The notes below the pieces were generated by a model, which was not told where the DNA came from, made no database searches, and saw only the letters and a list, made by a program, of their open reading frames with translations. A DNA stretch of 33,397 bases, from positions 1 to 33,397 of the forward strand of contig JAKFWO010000046.1 of the NCBI GenBank assembly GCA_021731815.1, written 5' to 3'. Made by a program: the position numbers and the translations under genes. Of the stretch, positions 1,436 to 27,946 are shown one piece after another. Source of the stretch: Hyphomonadaceae bacterium. Its GTDB lineage: Bacteria; Pseudomonadota; Alphaproteobacteria; Caulobacterales; Aquidulcibacteraceae. The first letter of the stretch is position 1; each line of letters begins with the position of its first letter.

Positions 1436-3111
1436 CGGTTCATCCCCGCGTGTGCGGGGAACGCCGCGCCGAATAGCGTGGGAGCTACCGGGCGCCCGGT
1501 TCATCCCCGCGTGTGCGGGGAACGCTTTGTGCCGACTGGGTACGGTCGTATGCCCGTCGGTTCATCCCCGCGTGTGCGGGGAACGCGGGGCTCATTCCTC
1601 GCACTCGTGTTCCTCGACCGGTTCATCCCCGCGTGTGCGGGGAACGCGCCCCGAGCGATCGGCGGAAGTCCGCTGATGGCGGTTCATCCCCGCGTGTGCG
1701 GGGAACGCTCGAGAGAAATGCTCCAAAACCCGCGCCATTCCGGTTCATCCCCGCGTGTGCGGGGAACGCGCCTCCGCAAGGCTGCGGGCACGCCCGGCGG
1801 GCGGTTCATCCCCGCGTGTGCGGGGAACGCGCGGCGATTCTGGCGTGGCAGGAGGCCGCAGACGGTTCATCCCCGCGTGTGCGGGGAACGCTGATTTGCG
1901 TGGTATGTCGGCCATTCTGGGGGCGGTTCATCCCCGCGTGTGCGGGGAACGCGCGGGATGCGTCGAGCTTACCCTGAACCGCTGCGGTTCATCCCCGCGT
2001 GCGCGGGGAACGCTGCGGATCGAGAAAGCGCTACCCCATTTTCGCCGGTTCATCCCCGCGTGTGCGGGGAGCGCGCCAGTGATCCTCACGACGGCGGCCG
2101 GACGACCGGTTCATCCCCGCGTGTGCGGGGAACGCGCGCGCCTCGAACAGGCCGTAATGCACGGCCCCGGTTCATCCCCGCGTGTGCGGGGAACGCGGAC
2201 ACCTGCCCGTCAGCGGCGAGAATAACGCCGGTTCATCCCCGCGTGTGCGGGGAACGCCGCAATTCGTTCGGGCCGGTTTTGACGAGACGCGGTTCATCCC
2301 CGCGTGTGCGGGGAACGCGGCATAGGCACTCGCCGATTCGCGAGCACGAACGGTTCATCCCCGCGTGTGCGGGGAACGCGACCCCGTTTGCGCCGTCGTG
2401 CACGCCGGCAGCGGTTCATCCCCGCGTGTGCGGGGAACGCACCCCGGCAGGCTATATAAATCAGATCTCCCCCGGTTCATCCCCGCGTGTGCGGGGAACG
2501 CCCCCGGATTGCGTTTTTCTTTACTTTCGGGCGCGGTTCATCCCCGCGTGTGCGGGGAACGCCAGATCGTCCACGATCACGACCGGCCCCGCGTCGGTTC
2601 ATCCCCGCGTGTGCGGGGAACGCAAATCCGGCGGGCGGATACGCGCCGATCAGCGCGGTTCATCCCCGCGTGTGCGGGGAACGCCTGAATTTGAGATACT
2701 CGACGCCCGCCCCGTACGGTTCATCCCCGCGTGTGCGGGGAACGCGGCGCGCCAGTGCCGATACGCGTCGGCAGCAACGGTTCATCCCCGCGTGTGCGGG
2801 GAACGCGGGGTCGGCCTGGGCGTCGTAGTGATCACGGCCGGTTCATCCCCGCGTGTGCGGGGAACGCGCGGCGGGTTGCGGCTGGTCCTCCAGCCGTGAA
2901 GGTTCATCCCCGCGTGTGCGGGGAACGCGGGATATGGAGCGCGTCGCTGAGGCGTACGGCCGGTTCATCCCCGCGTGTGCGGGGAACGCTAATGACGCAG
3001 TCGGGCCCTGGCCGCTCGCTCCGGTTCATCCCCGCGTGTGCGGGGAACGCTATGTCCTATTCCTTCAACGCGAGATAGCGGGCGGTTCATCCCCGCGTGT
3101 GCGGGGAACGC
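1436..3111 (-). CRISPR. Type I-E CRISPR array, 28 repeats and 27 spacers
   Basis: Direct count: 29-bp repeats start at 1436 and every 61 bases thereafter to 3083, giving 28 repeats and 27 spacers of exactly 32 bases. The plus-strand repeat is cggttcatccccgcgtgtg followed by cggggaacgc. Its complement, GCGTTCCCCGC-ACAC-GCGGGG-ATGAACCG, has the I-E form: a 6-bp stem with a 4-base loop and an 8-base 5' handle, ATGAACCG. The array is therefore transcribed on the minus strand, like the cas genes, with its leader at 3112-3160 and its oldest end at 1436. Three repeats vary: loop base at 2002 (t to c), 2071 (a to g), and 2900 (c to a, the last base of that repeat in crRNA sense). The terminal repeat at 1436 is intact. 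Spacer targets cannot be named without a database. Confidence 0.98.
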
Positions 3112-7361: not shown

Positions 7362-8848
7362 GCCGGGATACCCTTTTTCTTGCCCTGTTCCGGAACCGGC
7401 AAATCCAGCGCCACAAACGCCTCGCGGCCGGGCTTGCCTTTTCCGTCGAACGCAGCCCTCAGCTCTCTGAGCGCATTGATGATCTTGCCCTGATCTCCGA
7501 CATCCCGATCGGCGAGGCCAGCGATCGCGGCAGCGTCGAAAATACTCAGCGCCACTTTGCGCATGTCATTGAGCCACTGACGCGCGATGCGCTCCCAGTC
7601 GGGAGCGTCGCTCTGAAGGTCCGAAAGTCGATCCTCGAAGGCGGATTGCGTGCGGGCGTAGAAATCCTCTTGCAGGGCTTCCCGCGCTTCGCCTTCTGCC
7701 CGTGCGGTGGACAGTGCCCCGCGCAGGGCCGCGGCGAATCTGTCCGCCGCTTTGACAAGGCCTGCCATGCGGCCGGCAGCCTCTGACTCCAGCGTGACCA
7801 GTGGCACCCGGGAGAACAGAAAATCCAGCGGCTTCATATTGTCCATCGCCCAGCCTGCAATGATGACGTCGGGCCGCCGCCCGCTTCGTCCGCCCCATGC
7901 GCGCACAATCTCAGCCCGGCGTGCGAGATCGTCCGCATCCGGGGGCGGGCTCGCATTTATGCCGAGCCAATTGCGATATCCAAAGGTTCCGGCGCGCGGA
8001 TGCCGCGGAAAGAGCTCGCTTCCCGACGCCACTCGATAATGCGGCGTGAGCGGATGTTCCCAGCCGGCATAATTGGCACCGTAGGGCCGCTGTACCACGC
8101 CGGAGATCTGTTCTTCAGCCGCCACCAGACGCAATCGGCGCGGCATGCCAAAAAGCGCCTCGGCCGGATGCGCGTCCTGAGGAAACACTTTTTGGTCCCG
8201 TTCGGATGTGCGGCTCGGCCGCATCCACGGCAAGACATCGGGCTGGGCCGATGAACCGTCCGGCGTGTTCGCCCAAATCAGCGGCCAGAGCCCGTCGCGG
8301 GGCTCGACAAGGGTGATCAGCGGCCCGCCGCCGCGCATGGACGTACGGTTTCCCTTGCCGCCCGATGGCGCATGGGCTTGAAGCGTAAAGAGCGCCATGG
8401 CCGCGAGCGGATAATCAAGCATCGGGTAGCGATCGCACTTGACCATCAAATCAGCGTTGTTGCGTTGAGTCTGTTCACCGGCGCTGTCAATAAATAACAT
8501 GTCTGGTGTTTTGGGGTCTTTGACGCCAACTTCAAAGGTCTCACAGTCCTGCATGAAGCGCGGCCCATCGCCGAGAAGGTTGAAGGCTCGCGCGAAGTGC
8601 GAAAGCCGCTCGCGCAGGCGTTCCGGGTCTGGTGTCTGTCGGTCCTGCCAGTCCTCAACGTCGGATGGCGGGTCGGCGACGAACACAAGCCCGATCAAAA
8701 ACTCGAGGCACGCAATGTTCAGATCGACCCGCGGCCAATCGGGAAAGGCCAGCGTCGCATCCGCCATCTGCCATGGCGCAATGGTCACACGCGAGCCGTC
8801 CTTGCGCCGGACCGGAATCCAGGAATCGTTGATGAGATTGAGGGACAT
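7358..8848 (-). CDS. cse1: Cse1 (CasA/Cas8e), Cascade large subunit
   Basis: A 496-residue large subunit that reads the PAM and recruits Cas3. The start MSLNLINDSWIPVRRKDG is the typical CasA N-terminus (LLxxxWIPVxRxDG). Later IACLEFLIGLVF and the AHAPSGGKGNRTSMRGGGPL segment (near residues 155-175) are also conserved family features. A TTG at 8881 would add 11 residues, but the ATG at 8848 follows a GAAGG ribosome site and gives the family start. It overlaps cse2 by 4 bases. The 41-base gap to cas3 upstream is the only spacer of note inside the eight-gene operon. Confidence 0.95.
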
Positions 8849-22477: not shown

Positions 22478-22581
22478 CCTTTCGTCCCGGCCTTTCGTCC
22501 CGGCCTTTCGTCCCGGCCTTTCGTCCCGGTCTTTCGTCCCGGTCTTTCGTCCCCGTCTTTCGTCCCCGTCTTTCGTCAGGG
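22478..22581. repeat. 13-bp tandem repeat, eight copies
   Basis: Eight head-to-tail copies of a 13-bp unit: four exact cctttcgtcccgg (22478-22529), one tctttcgtcccgg, two tctttcgtccccg and one tctttcgtcaggg (22569-22581). Decayed units flank both ends (cctttggcagg on the left, tctttcggcagg on the right). The copies change stepwise from left to right, as in an array grown by slippage. The last copy contains the stop codon of the epimerase gene (22576-22578, minus strand). As 13 is not a multiple of 3, open frames through it on either strand are artefacts with a 13-residue period. Confidence 0.95.
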
Positions 22582-23751
22582 TCTTTCGGCAGGCAGCGCG
22601 CAGGCTTCGGCAAAGGCCAGGAAGACATGATACAAGGTCGAGGCCGGAATCGATGTGGCACATGCCTGCCCATTGGCATCGAAGGCATCGATCCAGGTGC
22701 CTGCGGGGATCGGAAATCCCGACCGGGGTGAAAGATAGCGATCGAGCAACAGGGCGCCGGATTGTTCGATCATTGCCCGTCCGCGCTCAAAATCATCGGG
22801 CTTCCCGTCCGGCCGGCCGGCGAAGCGGCACAGGGCAATGCCGGCCTTCATGCGTTCAGTATTCGGCCAGGTGCGGCTGCCACCATCAACAATCTCGCCG
22901 TCATCGCGCACGACATTGCGCACTGCGCCGGAAACCGGGCATCGGCCCAGTTGCTCGGCGGTTTCGATCAGTGCCCGGGCTGCGCGGGACCGATCACCCC
23001 CCAGAACATGATCGCAGCGTTCGAGGATCCATGCCCATTCAAATTGATGCCCGGGCTCGACCAGCCGGCCATCAGGACCCGGCGCGGGATTCCAGTCGGT
23101 ATCGAAATATTCGCACAGGGTACCCGTGACGGGCTGGAAAAACCGTTGCTCGAACATGCCCAATACGGATGCAGCGATGTCGGCATAGCGCTTTCCGAGC
23201 CCGGCTTCGCAGGCAATGAGACAGGCTTCGAGCAAATGCATATAGGGGTTCTGGAGCCGCCATTGCCCTTTGGGCAGCGGCGGGATCTCCCCGTTCGCGC
23301 GCGTTTCGAACCGGGTTTCGATGGACTCAAGACACAGCTGTGCCCGGTCTGCCCATTTGGCCTGCCCGCTCGCCTTGTAGGCCCAGGCGAAGCCGAACAG
23401 GCAAAAGGCGTGATCGTAGAGATCGGGTGTCGGATCGAGTATCCGGCCTTCGCGGGTTGTCCGGCGCACAAAGGATCGCCCGGTCCATGCCTGCTCCATC
23501 AGCCAGGACCCGGCAGTGTCCACCACGCGAGAACCCTCGGACCAGCCGAGAAGCGCTGCATGTGAAAACACATATATTTGTCGCCCGGCCACGCGGGTCC
23601 GTTTGAACTCCCGCGCGGCATCGCGCCCATCAAGCGCAAGTTCCTCCACTACGCCGCCGAATTCGGCATCAGGGGCACTGCGTGCCCAGAAGGGAAGGGC
23701 CTCGTCGAACATCCATGAATGGAAGCGATTGCGGGGCTCAGCAGCGGGCAT
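22576..23751 (-). CDS. AGE-family sugar epimerase/isomerase (possible mannose-6-phosphate isomerase-type)
   Basis: A 391-residue all-helical (alpha/alpha)6-barrel protein of the N-acylglucosamine 2-epimerase superfamily. It carries TRVAGRQIYVFSHAALLGW near residues 52-70, DLYDHAFCLFGFAWAY, NPYMHLLEACLIACE, EPGHQFEWAWILERC (with the probable catalytic His), RTWPNTERMKAGIALCRF and IPASTLYHVFLAFAEA. Family members interconvert mannose/glucose-type sugars, GlcNAc/ManNAc or related free sugars. Next to manC and gmd, a role in supplying mannose or mannose-6-phosphate is plausible, but the substrate is not shown by the sequence. It is divergent from manC. Its last codons and stop lie in the degenerate edge of the 13-bp repeat, so the C-terminus (ERP) is repeat-derived. 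Confidence 0.85.
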   Translation of the reverse strand: MPAAEPRNRFHSWMFDEALPFWARSAPDAEFGGVVEELALDGRDAAREFKRTRVAGRQIYVFSHAALLGWSEGSRVVDTAGSWLMEQAWTGRSFVRRTTREGRILDPTPDLYDHAFCLFGFAWAYKASGQAKWADRAQLCLESIETRFETRANGEIPPLPKGQWRLQNPYMHLLEACLIACEAGLGKRYADIAASVLGMFEQRFFQPVTGTLCEYFDTDWNPAPGPDGRLVEPGHQFEWAWILERCDHVLGGDRSRAARALIETAEQLGRCPVSGAVRNVVRDDGEIVDGGSRTWPNTERMKAGIALCRFAGRPDGKPDDFERGRAMIEQSGALLLDRYLSPRSGFPIPAGTWIDAFDANGQACATSIPASTLYHVFLAFAEACALPAERP

Positions 23752-25029: not shown

Positions 25030-25752
25030 ATGGTGGCCAATATTTTCATTCTCACCGGTGCCGGGATTTCCGCCGCTTCCGGCGTACCCACATTCCGCGG
25101 TGCCGACGGGTTATGGGAAGGGCATCACATCGAGGATGTGGCCTCACCCGAGGGCTTTGCCCGCGACCCTGTGCTCGTCCATGAATTCTACAACCAGCGG
25201 CGTGCCGCGCTTTCGCGTGTCAACCCCAATCGGGCGCATGCGGCCCTCGTTACCCTTGAACGCGCCGTCATCGCCCATGGCGGCGATTTCACGCTGGTCA
25301 CCCAGAATGTCGACGATCTCCATCAGCGCGCGGGTTCGGAGCGCCTTTTCCCGATGCATGGCCAATTGACGCGCGCCCGATGCACGGCGTGCGGCTGGGC
25401 CGGTGACGCCCCGCCATTGCTTTCTTCCGCCCATTCCTGTCCAGCCTGCGCCCGCAAGGGAGACGTGCGGCCCGACATCATATGGTTCGGGGAAATGCCG
25501 TATTTCATGGAGGAAATCGAGGAAAGACTCGCCAATGCCGATCTCTTCGCCGCAATCGGCACCAGCGGCCATGTCTATCCGGCCGCGGGATTTGTCCGGG
25601 AAGCGCGGCGGGCGGGTGCCGTGACCATCGAACTCAATCTCGAGCCTTCGGCCATTCGGGGACAGTTTGACCATGCGATCGAGGGCAATGCTGATGAAAC
25701 CGTGCCGATCTGGGTCGATGGCGTGCTCGGCCAATTGCATGGCGATCGCTGA
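25030..25752 (+). CDS. cobB: CobB-type sirtuin, NAD-dependent protein deacylase
   Basis: A 240-residue Sir2 protein that removes acyl groups from lysines using NAD. Motifs: GAGISAASGVPTFRG (residues 10-24), TQNVDDLHQRAG (91-102), catalytic H110 in FPMHGQL, a four-cysteine zinc site C118, C121, C137, C140, and GTSGHVYPAAGF. The pair Y54 and R57 in HEFYNQRRAA matches the Y-x-x-R motif of class III sirtuins, which bind succinyl- and malonyl-lysine, so desuccinylase activity is predicted in addition to deacetylase activity. The ATG at 25030 directly starts the first strand (VANIFILTGAG). It follows manC by 50 bases on the same strand, so they may share a transcript, though no functional link is evident. 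Confidence 0.94.
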   Translation: MVANIFILTGAGISAASGVPTFRGADGLWEGHHIEDVASPEGFARDPVLVHEFYNQRRAALSRVNPNRAHAALVTLERAVIAHGGDFTLVTQNVDDLHQRAGSERLFPMHGQLTRARCTACGWAGDAPPLLSSAHSCPACARKGDVRPDIIWFGEMPYFMEEIEERLANADLFAAIGTSGHVYPAAGFVREARRAGAVTIELNLEPSAIRGQFDHAIEGNADETVPIWVDGVLGQLHGDR

Positions 25753-25862
25753 TCGTGGGGCATCAACCGATGACCGGGAGCGCTTCACCGATTGCCCCGG
25801 AAAGGCGATTGCAGGCGAAAGCATCGAGGCCATGTTTCAGTATTGCGCTCTTTATGCTCGCA

Positions 25863-25903
25863 CAGGAATTTGACTGAGCCGAAGCACCTTGTTGAAATTC
25901 CTG
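25863..25903. promoter_or_regulatory. Perfect inverted repeat between cobB and the exporter
   Basis: caggaattt (25863-25871) and aaattcctg (25895-25903) form a perfect 9-bp inverted repeat with 23 bases between arms, about 110 bases after the cobB stop and 125 before the exporter leader ORF. No T-run follows, so it does not look like an intrinsic terminator; an operator or an RNA stem is possible. The rest of the 275-base gap shows nothing else recognisable. Confidence 0.35.
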
Positions 25904-26027
25904 CCCGGCGCGCGCTCGCCACCAGCGAACACGCATCTTGCACTCATGGCCGGCCAAATTTTTCCGGGGATTTAACAGCCGGGTCCAGTAGCCCCGATCT
26001 TGCCACCCGGGTAAGGAGTGCATTCAC

Positions 26028-26054
26028 ATGACTGCGTTGATTTGGTTTCCATGA
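26028..26054 (+). CDS. Eight-codon leader ORF overlapping the exporter start
   Basis: A strong AAGGAG ribosome site (26013-26018) is set 9 bases before ATG 26028, which opens a frame of only eight codons, MTALIWFP, closed by TGA at 26052-26054. That TGA overlaps the ATG of the exporter gene (26051) as ATGA. Because the best ribosome site of the region serves this ORF and not the exporter, the exporter is probably translated by reinitiation after the short peptide. Expression is not shown; the alternative is a GTG start at 26018 in the exporter frame, but that codon lies on the ribosome site itself. Confidence 0.45.
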   Translation: MTALIWFP

Positions 26055-27946
26055 CCCAAGCGGAAGGCACTGCCTCCTCCAGCCGACCCAGCCCCGGGAA
26101 CGTCGCCGTTCAGGCCTGGAATCGCGATGGCGGAAAGCGCGAGCCCGGCGGTGACCTGCGCATCCTGGCGCGGTTGTGGCCTTATGTGTGGCGTCGCCCG
26201 GTCGATCTCGCAGCGGCGATGTTTTTTCTGCTGCTGTCAGCGACGGCGACCCTGTCGATCACCGGTGGCGCGCGTGCTCTGGTCGATCATGGCTTCTATT
26301 CGGAAAATTCCGAAGGGCTCGATCGCTATTTCCTGCTTCTGGCCGCCATTGCCGGCGTGATGGCAGTGGCATCGGCATGTCGCTTCTATTTCGTGACCAA
26401 AATCGGAGAGCGCGTGGTCGCGGATCTGCGCAAGGATGTCTATGCGCATCTGCTCGGCCTGTCGGCCTCGTGGTTCGCGCAGGTCCGCGTGGGTGAGGCC
26501 ATTTCACGCCTGACCACGGACGCTGCACTCATCGAGACATTGGTCGGATCCTCGGCATCGATCGCGCTGCGCAATGTCATCACGACGCTCGCGGCGCTCG
26601 TCTTGCTGGCGGTGATTTCGCCATTGCTGACCGGATTGCTGTTGCTCATGATCCCGGCGATTCTCGTACCTTTGTTCGCACTGGGCGGGCGGGTAAGGCG
26701 GCTCTCGACCCTTGCCCAGGACCGTGTGGCGGATGCCGCCGCGAGTGCTGCCGAAGCGATCGAGGCGCGCGAAATCGTTCAGGCTTTTGGCCGCGAGGAT
26801 TTCGCCATCGCGCGGTTTTCGGGTGCCGTTGATGCGGCCTTCGCGGCCGCAAAAAAGCGGATCCGGGCGCGCTCTTTCATGACCGCATTGCTGATTTCGC
26901 TGATTTTCTCTGGCGTTGCGGGGGTGTTGTGGCTTGGTGCCCGGCAGGTCGTTGACGGCGCGATGAGCCACGGCGCGCTCGCCCAATTCGTGTTTCTGGC
27001 GATCCTCGCTGCGAGCGGGACGGCAGCCCTCACCGAAGTATGGGGCGATGTGCAACGCGCGGCGGGAGCAGCGCGGCGCCTTGTCGAGATCCTCGATGCC
27101 GAACCTGCGATCCGGGCCCCGGCCAATCCGCAAAGCCTTCCTGATTTATCCCGGTCCGGCGGCCCGTCCGGGGAAATCAGCTTTGAAAATGTCCATTTTG
27201 CCTATCCCGCGCTGGAATACGCCAATGAGACGGGGGCGGAAGCCGCCCCGATGGCCACCCGAATGGCTGCGTTGCGCGGCGTGAGTTTCCGCATCAGACC
27301 CGGCGAGACGGTGGCGATTGTCGGGCCCTCGGGGGCGGGAAAATCGACTTTGTTCAAGCTGCTTCTACGTTTTTACGATTGCGATTCCGGCGGGATACAG
27401 CTCGATGGCGTGGATGCCCGGGCCGCCGATCCGCGGGAATGGCGCCGACGCTTTGCCTATGTCAGCCAGGATTCCGCTCTGTTTTCGGGTTCGGCCTTCG
27501 ACAATATCGGGTTCGGCCGGGCCGGGGCCGGGGAGGATGCGATCCGCAGCGCCGCCGCCCGGGCCGAGGCTCTCGGCTTTGTCGAAGCCCGCGACGGCGG
27601 CCTCCATGCCCCGCTTGGCGACCGGGCACGCGCGCTGTCGGGTGGAGAGCGCCAGCGCCTCGTCATCGCGCGCGCCCTGGTGCGCGAGGCCCCCATCCTG
27701 CTGCTCGACGAGGCGACCTCGGCGCTCGATGCCCATAACGAGCATCTGGTGCAAAAGGCGCTTTCGGAAGCGATGGACGGACGAACCACTTTGGTGATCG
27801 CCCACCGGCTTGCCACCGTGTTGCGCGCCGACCGGATCCTTGTCATGGAACATGGGCGGATCGTGGAAGAGGGGCGACATGCCGAGCTCGTGGCGTGCGA
27901 CGGGCTCTATGCACGGTTGGCGTCGCTGCAATTTTCGGCGGAATGA
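26051..27946 (+). CDS. ABC exporter half-transporter (fused membrane and ATPase domains)
   Basis: A 631-residue MsbA/LapB-type exporter subunit, expected to work as a dimer in the inner membrane. After a polar N-terminus of about 40 residues come six membrane helices (first near VDLAAAMFFLLLSATATLSI). The ATPase domain starts near residue 375: A-loop FENVHFAYP, Walker A IVGPSGAGKSTLFKLLLRFYD (near 425), Q-loop YVSQD, signature LSGGERQRLVIARAL (near 530), Walker B ILLLDEATSALD and H-loop VIAHRLATV. About 20 extra residues (ALEYANETGAEAAPMATRMA) lie between the A-loop and the Walker A strand, where relatives have a tight turn. The substrate (lipid, peptide or drug) is not evident. ATG 26051 was chosen because of the overlap with the leader ORF and the normal N-terminal length. 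Confidence 0.92.
   Translation: MTQAEGTASSSRPSPGNVAVQAWNRDGGKREPGGDLRILARLWPYVWRRPVDLAAAMFFLLLSATATLSITGGARALVDHGFYSENSEGLDRYFLLLAAIAGVMAVASACRFYFVTKIGERVVADLRKDVYAHLLGLSASWFAQVRVGEAISRLTTDAALIETLVGSSASIALRNVITTLAALVLLAVISPLLTGLLLLMIPAILVPLFALGGRVRRLSTLAQDRVADAAASAAEAIEAREIVQAFGREDFAIARFSGAVDAAFAAAKKRIRARSFMTALLISLIFSGVAGVLWLGARQVVDGAMSHGALAQFVFLAILAASGTAALTEVWGDVQRAAGAARRLVEILDAEPAIRAPANPQSLPDLSRSGGPSGEISFENVHFAYPALEYANETGAEAAPMATRMAALRGVSFRIRPGETVAIVGPSGAGKSTLFKLLLRFYDCDSGGIQLDGVDARAADPREWRRRFAYVSQDSALFSGSAFDNIGFGRAGAGEDAIRSAAARAEALGFVEARDGGLHAPLGDRARALSGGERQRLVIARALVREAPILLLDEATSALDAHNEHLVQKALSEAMDGRTTLVIAHRLATVLRADRILVMEHGRIVEEGRHAELVACDGLYARLASLQFSAE

Follow-up and report, generated by a model that had tools for sequence, protein, structure and literature searches.

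An eight-codon reading frame overlapping an ABC exporter start in a Hyphomonadaceae bacterium: a possible ribosome-loading relay or an incidental frame

Overlapping stop and start codons strictly coupled translation in 13 of 14 gene pairs from H. volcanii and E. coli, and the requirement for a Shine–Dalgarno (SD) sequence differed from pair to pair (PMC6728339). In M. tuberculosis, PPE2 expression requires a uORF that overlaps the PPE2 start at AUGA and that acts mainly by termination-reinitiation (PMC11260477). In the drug-responsive leaders msrDL (PMC10314930) and bmrB (PMC4191407), a stalled ribosome acts on a structure. Here and below, PMC6728339, PMC11260477, PMC10314930, PMC7246954 and PMC4117421 are cited from excerpts of their text.

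We analysed a 33,397-nt stretch of DNA from a Hyphomonadaceae bacterium (the window), in which a short ORF led by an SD-like site overlaps the start codon of a gene for an ABC exporter. A preliminary description had suggested that exporter output depends on translation of this ORF, as in antibiotic-responsive leaders. The observation itself is confirmed and coupling is possible, while a regulatory leader is not supported; at most, the short ORF is an ordinary ribosome-loading relay.

Layout of the short ORF and its exporter

The features of the locus are collected in Table 1. Coordinates and codons (TAAGGAGTGCATTCACATG; positions 26012-26056 read TAAGGAGTGCATTCACATGACTGCGTTGATTTGGTTTCCATGACC) proved exact, the short ORF consisting of ATG ACT GCG TTG ATT TGG TTT CCA TGA, with its stop at 26052-26054. 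By our rule for an SD (at least 4 nt of AAGGAGGT, 4-12 nt from the start codon), none precedes ATG 26051, which bears out the earlier claim that the only good ribosome site belongs to ATG 26028. An SD-led ORF whose stop overlaps the next start is the sequence layout of a uORF coupled by termination-reinitiation, in which downstream translation would also have to depend on upstream translation. Frameshifting from the ORF into the exporter was considered and rejected, a look by eye at their junction (GGTTTCCATGA) giving no X_XXY_YYZ slippery site. Elsewhere, the window carries a CRISPR-like array at 1558-3052 (29-nt repeat CGGTTCATCCCCGCGTGTGCGGGGAACGC, period 61), which we take to be type I-E-like, and a 13-bp tandem repeat at 22479-22588 (CTTTCGTCCCGGT, 8.5 copies, 94% match).

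Table 1. Features at the exporter locus, in window coordinates
Feature	Positions	Strand	Evidence
SD-like AAGGAG, 9 nt before ATG 26028	26013..26018	+	6-nt match
8-codon ORF MTALIWFP with TGA stop	26028..26054	+	sequence; codon score -0.25; no counterpart found in relatives
ATGA stop/start overlap	26051..26054	+	sequence
Weak promoter-like pair TTGCCA-N19-CACATG, -10 covering the ATG of the short ORF	26000..26030	+	top matrix score
ABC exporter, 631 aa	26051..27946	+	best NCBIfam model TIGR02204 MsbA_rel; start conserved
Lengthened stretch after A-loop FAYP, +14 residues versus relatives	27209..27268	+	sequence, protein alignment

TIGR02204 is the best of 187 NCBIfam models for the exporter and covers residues 36-628, at a score below the curated cut-off for membership (746.2 versus 780.4 bits). 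The exporter's initial MTQ aligns with MTD, MTQ or MTN in the family relatives and, judged by this protein alignment, ATG 26051 is the conserved start. Identity is 56-66% in the family relatives (58-61% where the protein is nearly full length and uncut by a contig end), 46-57% for the closest copies in 18 of 19 order relatives and 38% in G057. From 210 named loci we kept 80, nine of which entered the protein alignment; the best seven named relatives of the exporter are all alphaproteobacteria (43-51% identity). The preliminary description had also given the ATPase about 20 extra residues near its A-loop: an extra stretch is indeed present and is absent from all 37 other alignment rows, but the alignment reduces its excess to 14 residues. 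At the same place, L019 has five extra residues and L034 has four.

Exporter starts in relatives and short ORFs in the same genome

The exporter (E ≤1e-120) was found in 25 of 60 family genomes, a count that includes its own genome and a set that holds no second genome of its genus. Upstream DNA was readable in 22 of the 24 family relatives (L033 and L120, which end at a contig edge before the start, were excluded) and was read in 12 of the 19 matching order genomes (G043, G045, G047, G051, G055, G057 and G059 were left out). By the same rule, all 22 family relatives lack an SD at the orthologous ATG; in L126, AAGG lies just 3 nt from it, outside the rule. In none of these 22 does an SD of 5 nt or longer lead an overlapping short ORF, and 15 have some overlapping short ORF, which starts with ATG in two (L018 and L019, both without an SD) and combines a GTG or TTG start with a 4-nt SD in L013, L122 and L125. 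Among the 12 order relatives read, none has an SD-led overlapping ORF upstream of the exporter, and in nine the exporter itself bears a 4-5-nt SD. The preliminary description had named lack of conservation as a result that would count against its leader, and this is what we found: outside its genus, the peptide has no counterpart in any of the 22 family or 12 order relatives, where a drug-sensing arrest peptide would be expected to be conserved.

A DNA search with 25753-26110 across 101 genomes matched, its own genome aside, a single relative over 22 nt. These 22 nt (25892-25913) are identical to codons near a gene start in G002 (E 4.6e-4; 1 of 100 relatives), presumably that of an Nfu-like Fe-S scaffold gene, and the identity is a relic or chance. 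A pattern search in six genomes gave inexact matches.

We sampled 833 kb of the exporter's own genome (40 stretches plus the window), in which a simple script called 668 genes with starts placed from codon usage alone, some of them wrongly. An SD of at least 4 nt precedes 37% of 667 scored starts (background 10%), leaving 63% without one, and the corresponding values are 11% (background 2%) for at least 5 nt and 1.5% (background 0.3%) for at least 6 nt. AAGGAG is a strong SD for this genome, whose starts are SD-poor and in this resemble those of Caulobacter crescentus, where an SD is absent from 75.4% of genes and leaderless mRNAs account for 9.6% of CDSs (PMC4117421).

We then compared the frequency of short ORFs (ATG, GTG or TTG start, at most 40 codons, stop abutting or overlapping the gene start) with that in dinucleotide-shuffled upstream DNA, using the 457 genes whose free upstream DNA exceeds 60 nt. 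Any such ORF was present at 108 of the 457 genes, compared to 102 in shuffles; therefore, the overlap at the exporter is ordinary, and SD strength alone stands out. At minimum SD lengths of 4, 5 and 6 nt, ATG-led cases numbered 10, 2 and 2, compared to 9.05, 1.75 and 0.3 in shuffles. A second cut, of 499 genes with over 40 nt upstream, had 121 short ORFs versus 114.6 overall and 13, 3 and 2 versus 8.55, 2.0 and 0.25 for the same SD lengths. The two cases with at least 6 nt among the 457 genes are the exporter locus and a 25-codon ORF in L160. Thus, an overlap led by such an SD is locally unlikely by chance, yet about one is expected per whole genome, a figure extrapolated from the shuffle count of 0.3 in one third of the genome, and in an SD-poor genome this calls for caution. 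The L160 ORF (MQMSESNHWKLIILLWGEAGPKSDR, minus strand, SD GGAGGT) overlaps a gene start near 8021; the gene presumably encodes a 6-phosphogluconolactonase-type protein.

Readings of the short ORF

Our leading explanation, to which we assign a probability of about 0.45, is that the short ORF, if transcribed, is a passive, lineage-specific relay that loads ribosomes by termination-reinitiation. RNA polymerase would start upstream of 26013, AAGGAG would load ribosomes onto a throw-away ORF, and after terminating at TGA 26052 some ribosomes would restart one base back at ATG 26051. The role of the ORF would be ribosome loading for an SD-less exporter start, and not sensing. The strong, well-spaced SD before ATG 26028 and the lack of one before 26051 favour this explanation, as do the overlap-coupled gene pairs of H. 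volcanii and E. coli and the M. tuberculosis uORF described above. Moreover, 4-nt overlaps occur in 52 of 378 close same-strand called gene pairs in the own-genome sample, and in 32 of those 52 the downstream gene has no SD of at least 4 nt; consequently, the layout for coupling, which is plainly there in the DNA, could operate provided that the region is transcribed.

Several observations weigh against a relay. The ORF is absent from all relatives examined (22 family, 12 order), about one such layout per genome is expected by chance, and the best promoter-like site overlaps its ATG. Its codon score resembles that of upstream DNA (-0.25, where genic sequence averages 0.21 and upstream DNA -0.14; 33% of upstream segments and 2.4% of genic segments score as low), although a score resting on 7 codons deserves little weight. 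In predicted folds, which are no stabler than shuffles, AAGGAG is partly paired with bases near or after 26045. The claim that exporter output depends on translation of the peptide stands in part: the geometry for coupling is there, but because an SD-less start is common to all 22 family relatives, dependence on the short ORF is not implied.

A near-equal rival, which we hold almost as readily, is that the ORF is incidental: the exporter would start at 26051 without an SD, 26000-26050 would be promoter DNA, and the ORF would be untranscribed or unused. Transcription of the ORF is the point that divides these two explanations. SD-less starts are found not only at the exporter of the family relatives but at most called genes of the own genome, and overlapping short ORFs are no commoner than chance. 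Of the 21 family relatives scored, 19 have a pair of -35/-10-like elements whose -10 ends 5-9 nt before the ATG (for example, TTGGCG-N17-CACATC and TTCACG-N16-TAACTC); L020 and L126 do not fit. This count uses positions for L123 and L125 corrected by 3 nt, the rows of L123, L125 and L126 being 3 nt off register in the upstream alignment and promoter scoring and in the right register in the SD and ORF reading. L124, outside the 21, has TTGGCG-N17-TACACC, 6 nt before its ATG. The relatives' -10 sites resemble the Caulobacter -10 form GCTANAWC. A -10 ending 5-9 nt before the ATG would place the 5′ end at or near that ATG and, therefore, the exporter mRNA of the family relatives may be leaderless. 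The pair is kept near the exporter ATG in L012-L017, L021, L023, L026, L029, L121 and L122, a group in which, by the same sites, leaderless exporter mRNA may extend to at least two genera.

The window's own best promoter-like site also lies just upstream of the exporter. It is the top matrix site of 25753-26051 (8.41, compared to shuffle maxima with a mean of 7.53 and an sd of 1.72), its -10 letters CACATG include the ATG of the short ORF, and L028 carries identical -10 letters. Its score, however, falls inside the shuffle range, its spacer is 19 nt and its -10 ends 20 nt from the exporter ATG. A standard scan of 25700-26120 found no sigma-70 promoter. Because the pairs in the relatives, L124 included, were chosen manually and also served to train the matrix, the scoring is circular and describes rather than tests. 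In addition, the window's upstream DNA aligns with few of the 21 relatives (shuffle fraction 0.003 for L011 and L023, about 0.02 for L029, L121 and L123, and above 0.1 for the other 16), which does not suffice to establish the promoter region as homologous. An AAGGAG 9 nt from an ATG is also unlikely by chance at any one place, which counts against an incidental ORF.

In the own genome, a de novo search for two-block promoters in 442 upstream regions returned A/T-rich, palindrome-like patterns from five seeds and was set aside as uninformative. Patterns resembling a -10 show a slight excess at most at -15 to -6 before called starts; among 225 SD-less first genes, GCTANA has 3 of its 5 matches there, and such numbers are too small to be of use.

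It is highly improbable that the ORF senses an antibiotic or metabolite through ribosomes stalling on MTALIWFP and altering exporter expression. In length and hydrophobicity the peptide is like MsrDL (MYLIFM), on which erythromycin stalls ribosomes at termination (PMC10314930). A C-terminal Pro is reported to slow termination in E. coli, as cited in PMC7246954, but the reporter assay of that same paper, in its excerpts, found no significant effect of a C-terminal Pro, and little can be built on the Pro-UGA end. Lack of conservation argues against a sensing role, as does the surrounding RNA. We found no intrinsic terminator-like site in 25700-26120, no Rfam match in 25600-26300 up to E = 1 and no unusually stable fold at the locus, the predicted folds having z-scores of 0.92, 0.61, -0.12 and 1.20 relative to shuffles. 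The locus consequently does not qualify as a ribosome-mediated transcription attenuator of the bmrB or msrDL type. Nor does it qualify as a translational attenuator of the ermC type, since the exporter ATG has no SD to uncover and the stop of the short ORF overlaps the exporter start. With a ribosome paused at Pro8, the exporter AUG would be covered and, therefore, stalling at the end of the ORF should repress the exporter. Nothing in the present analysis links the exporter to drugs, and the antibiotic-responsive leader first proposed is left unsupported.

We regard as a long shot a gate that needs no hairpin, in which slow termination at Pro-UGA would directly set the number of ribosomes restarting on the exporter AUG. 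Slowed release, by a tunnel-binding drug or low RF2, would then lower or delay exporter synthesis, and the gate would have arisen in one lineage, replacing an ancestral leaderless start. A misplaced start or wrong base, making ATG 26028 or GTG 26018 the true start of a longer protein, is very unlikely: GTG 26018 and TTG 26042 share the exporter frame, but the family relatives' starts line up with Met 26051, and GTG 26018 is rejected because it sits on the SD-like site.

If the relay explanation is true, the gene moved in one lineage from the probable leaderless initiation of its relatives to SD-loaded reinitiation, which would make it a small example of a testable evolutionary step.

Comparison with described systems

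Like msrDL-msrD, the locus places a very short hydrophobic peptide before an ABC-type gene, but msrD encodes an ABC-F translation factor rather than an exporter, and an intrinsic terminator separates msrDL from msrD where we find an overlap and no terminator (PMC10314930). The bmrB-bmrCD system of Bacillus subtilis also has a small ORF immediately 5′ of an ABC exporter gene; bmrB, however, has 53 residues and terminator and anti-terminator structures (PMC4191407), whereas none were found here. Overlapping gene pairs translated by termination-reinitiation share the stop/start overlap and a downstream SD that is not always required, and differ in that, as excerpted, their upstream partner is a real gene (PMC6728339), compared to eight codons not found in relatives. 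The uORF-ppe2 of M. tuberculosis works in connection with a B12 riboswitch and has been shown by mutants, whereas the exporter's short ORF has no Rfam match and is known from sequence alone; the two are alike in an SD-dependent or SD-led uORF, an AUGA overlap and, for uORF-ppe2 as excerpted, termination-reinitiation (PMC11260477), the mechanism that our leading explanation would extend to the exporter.
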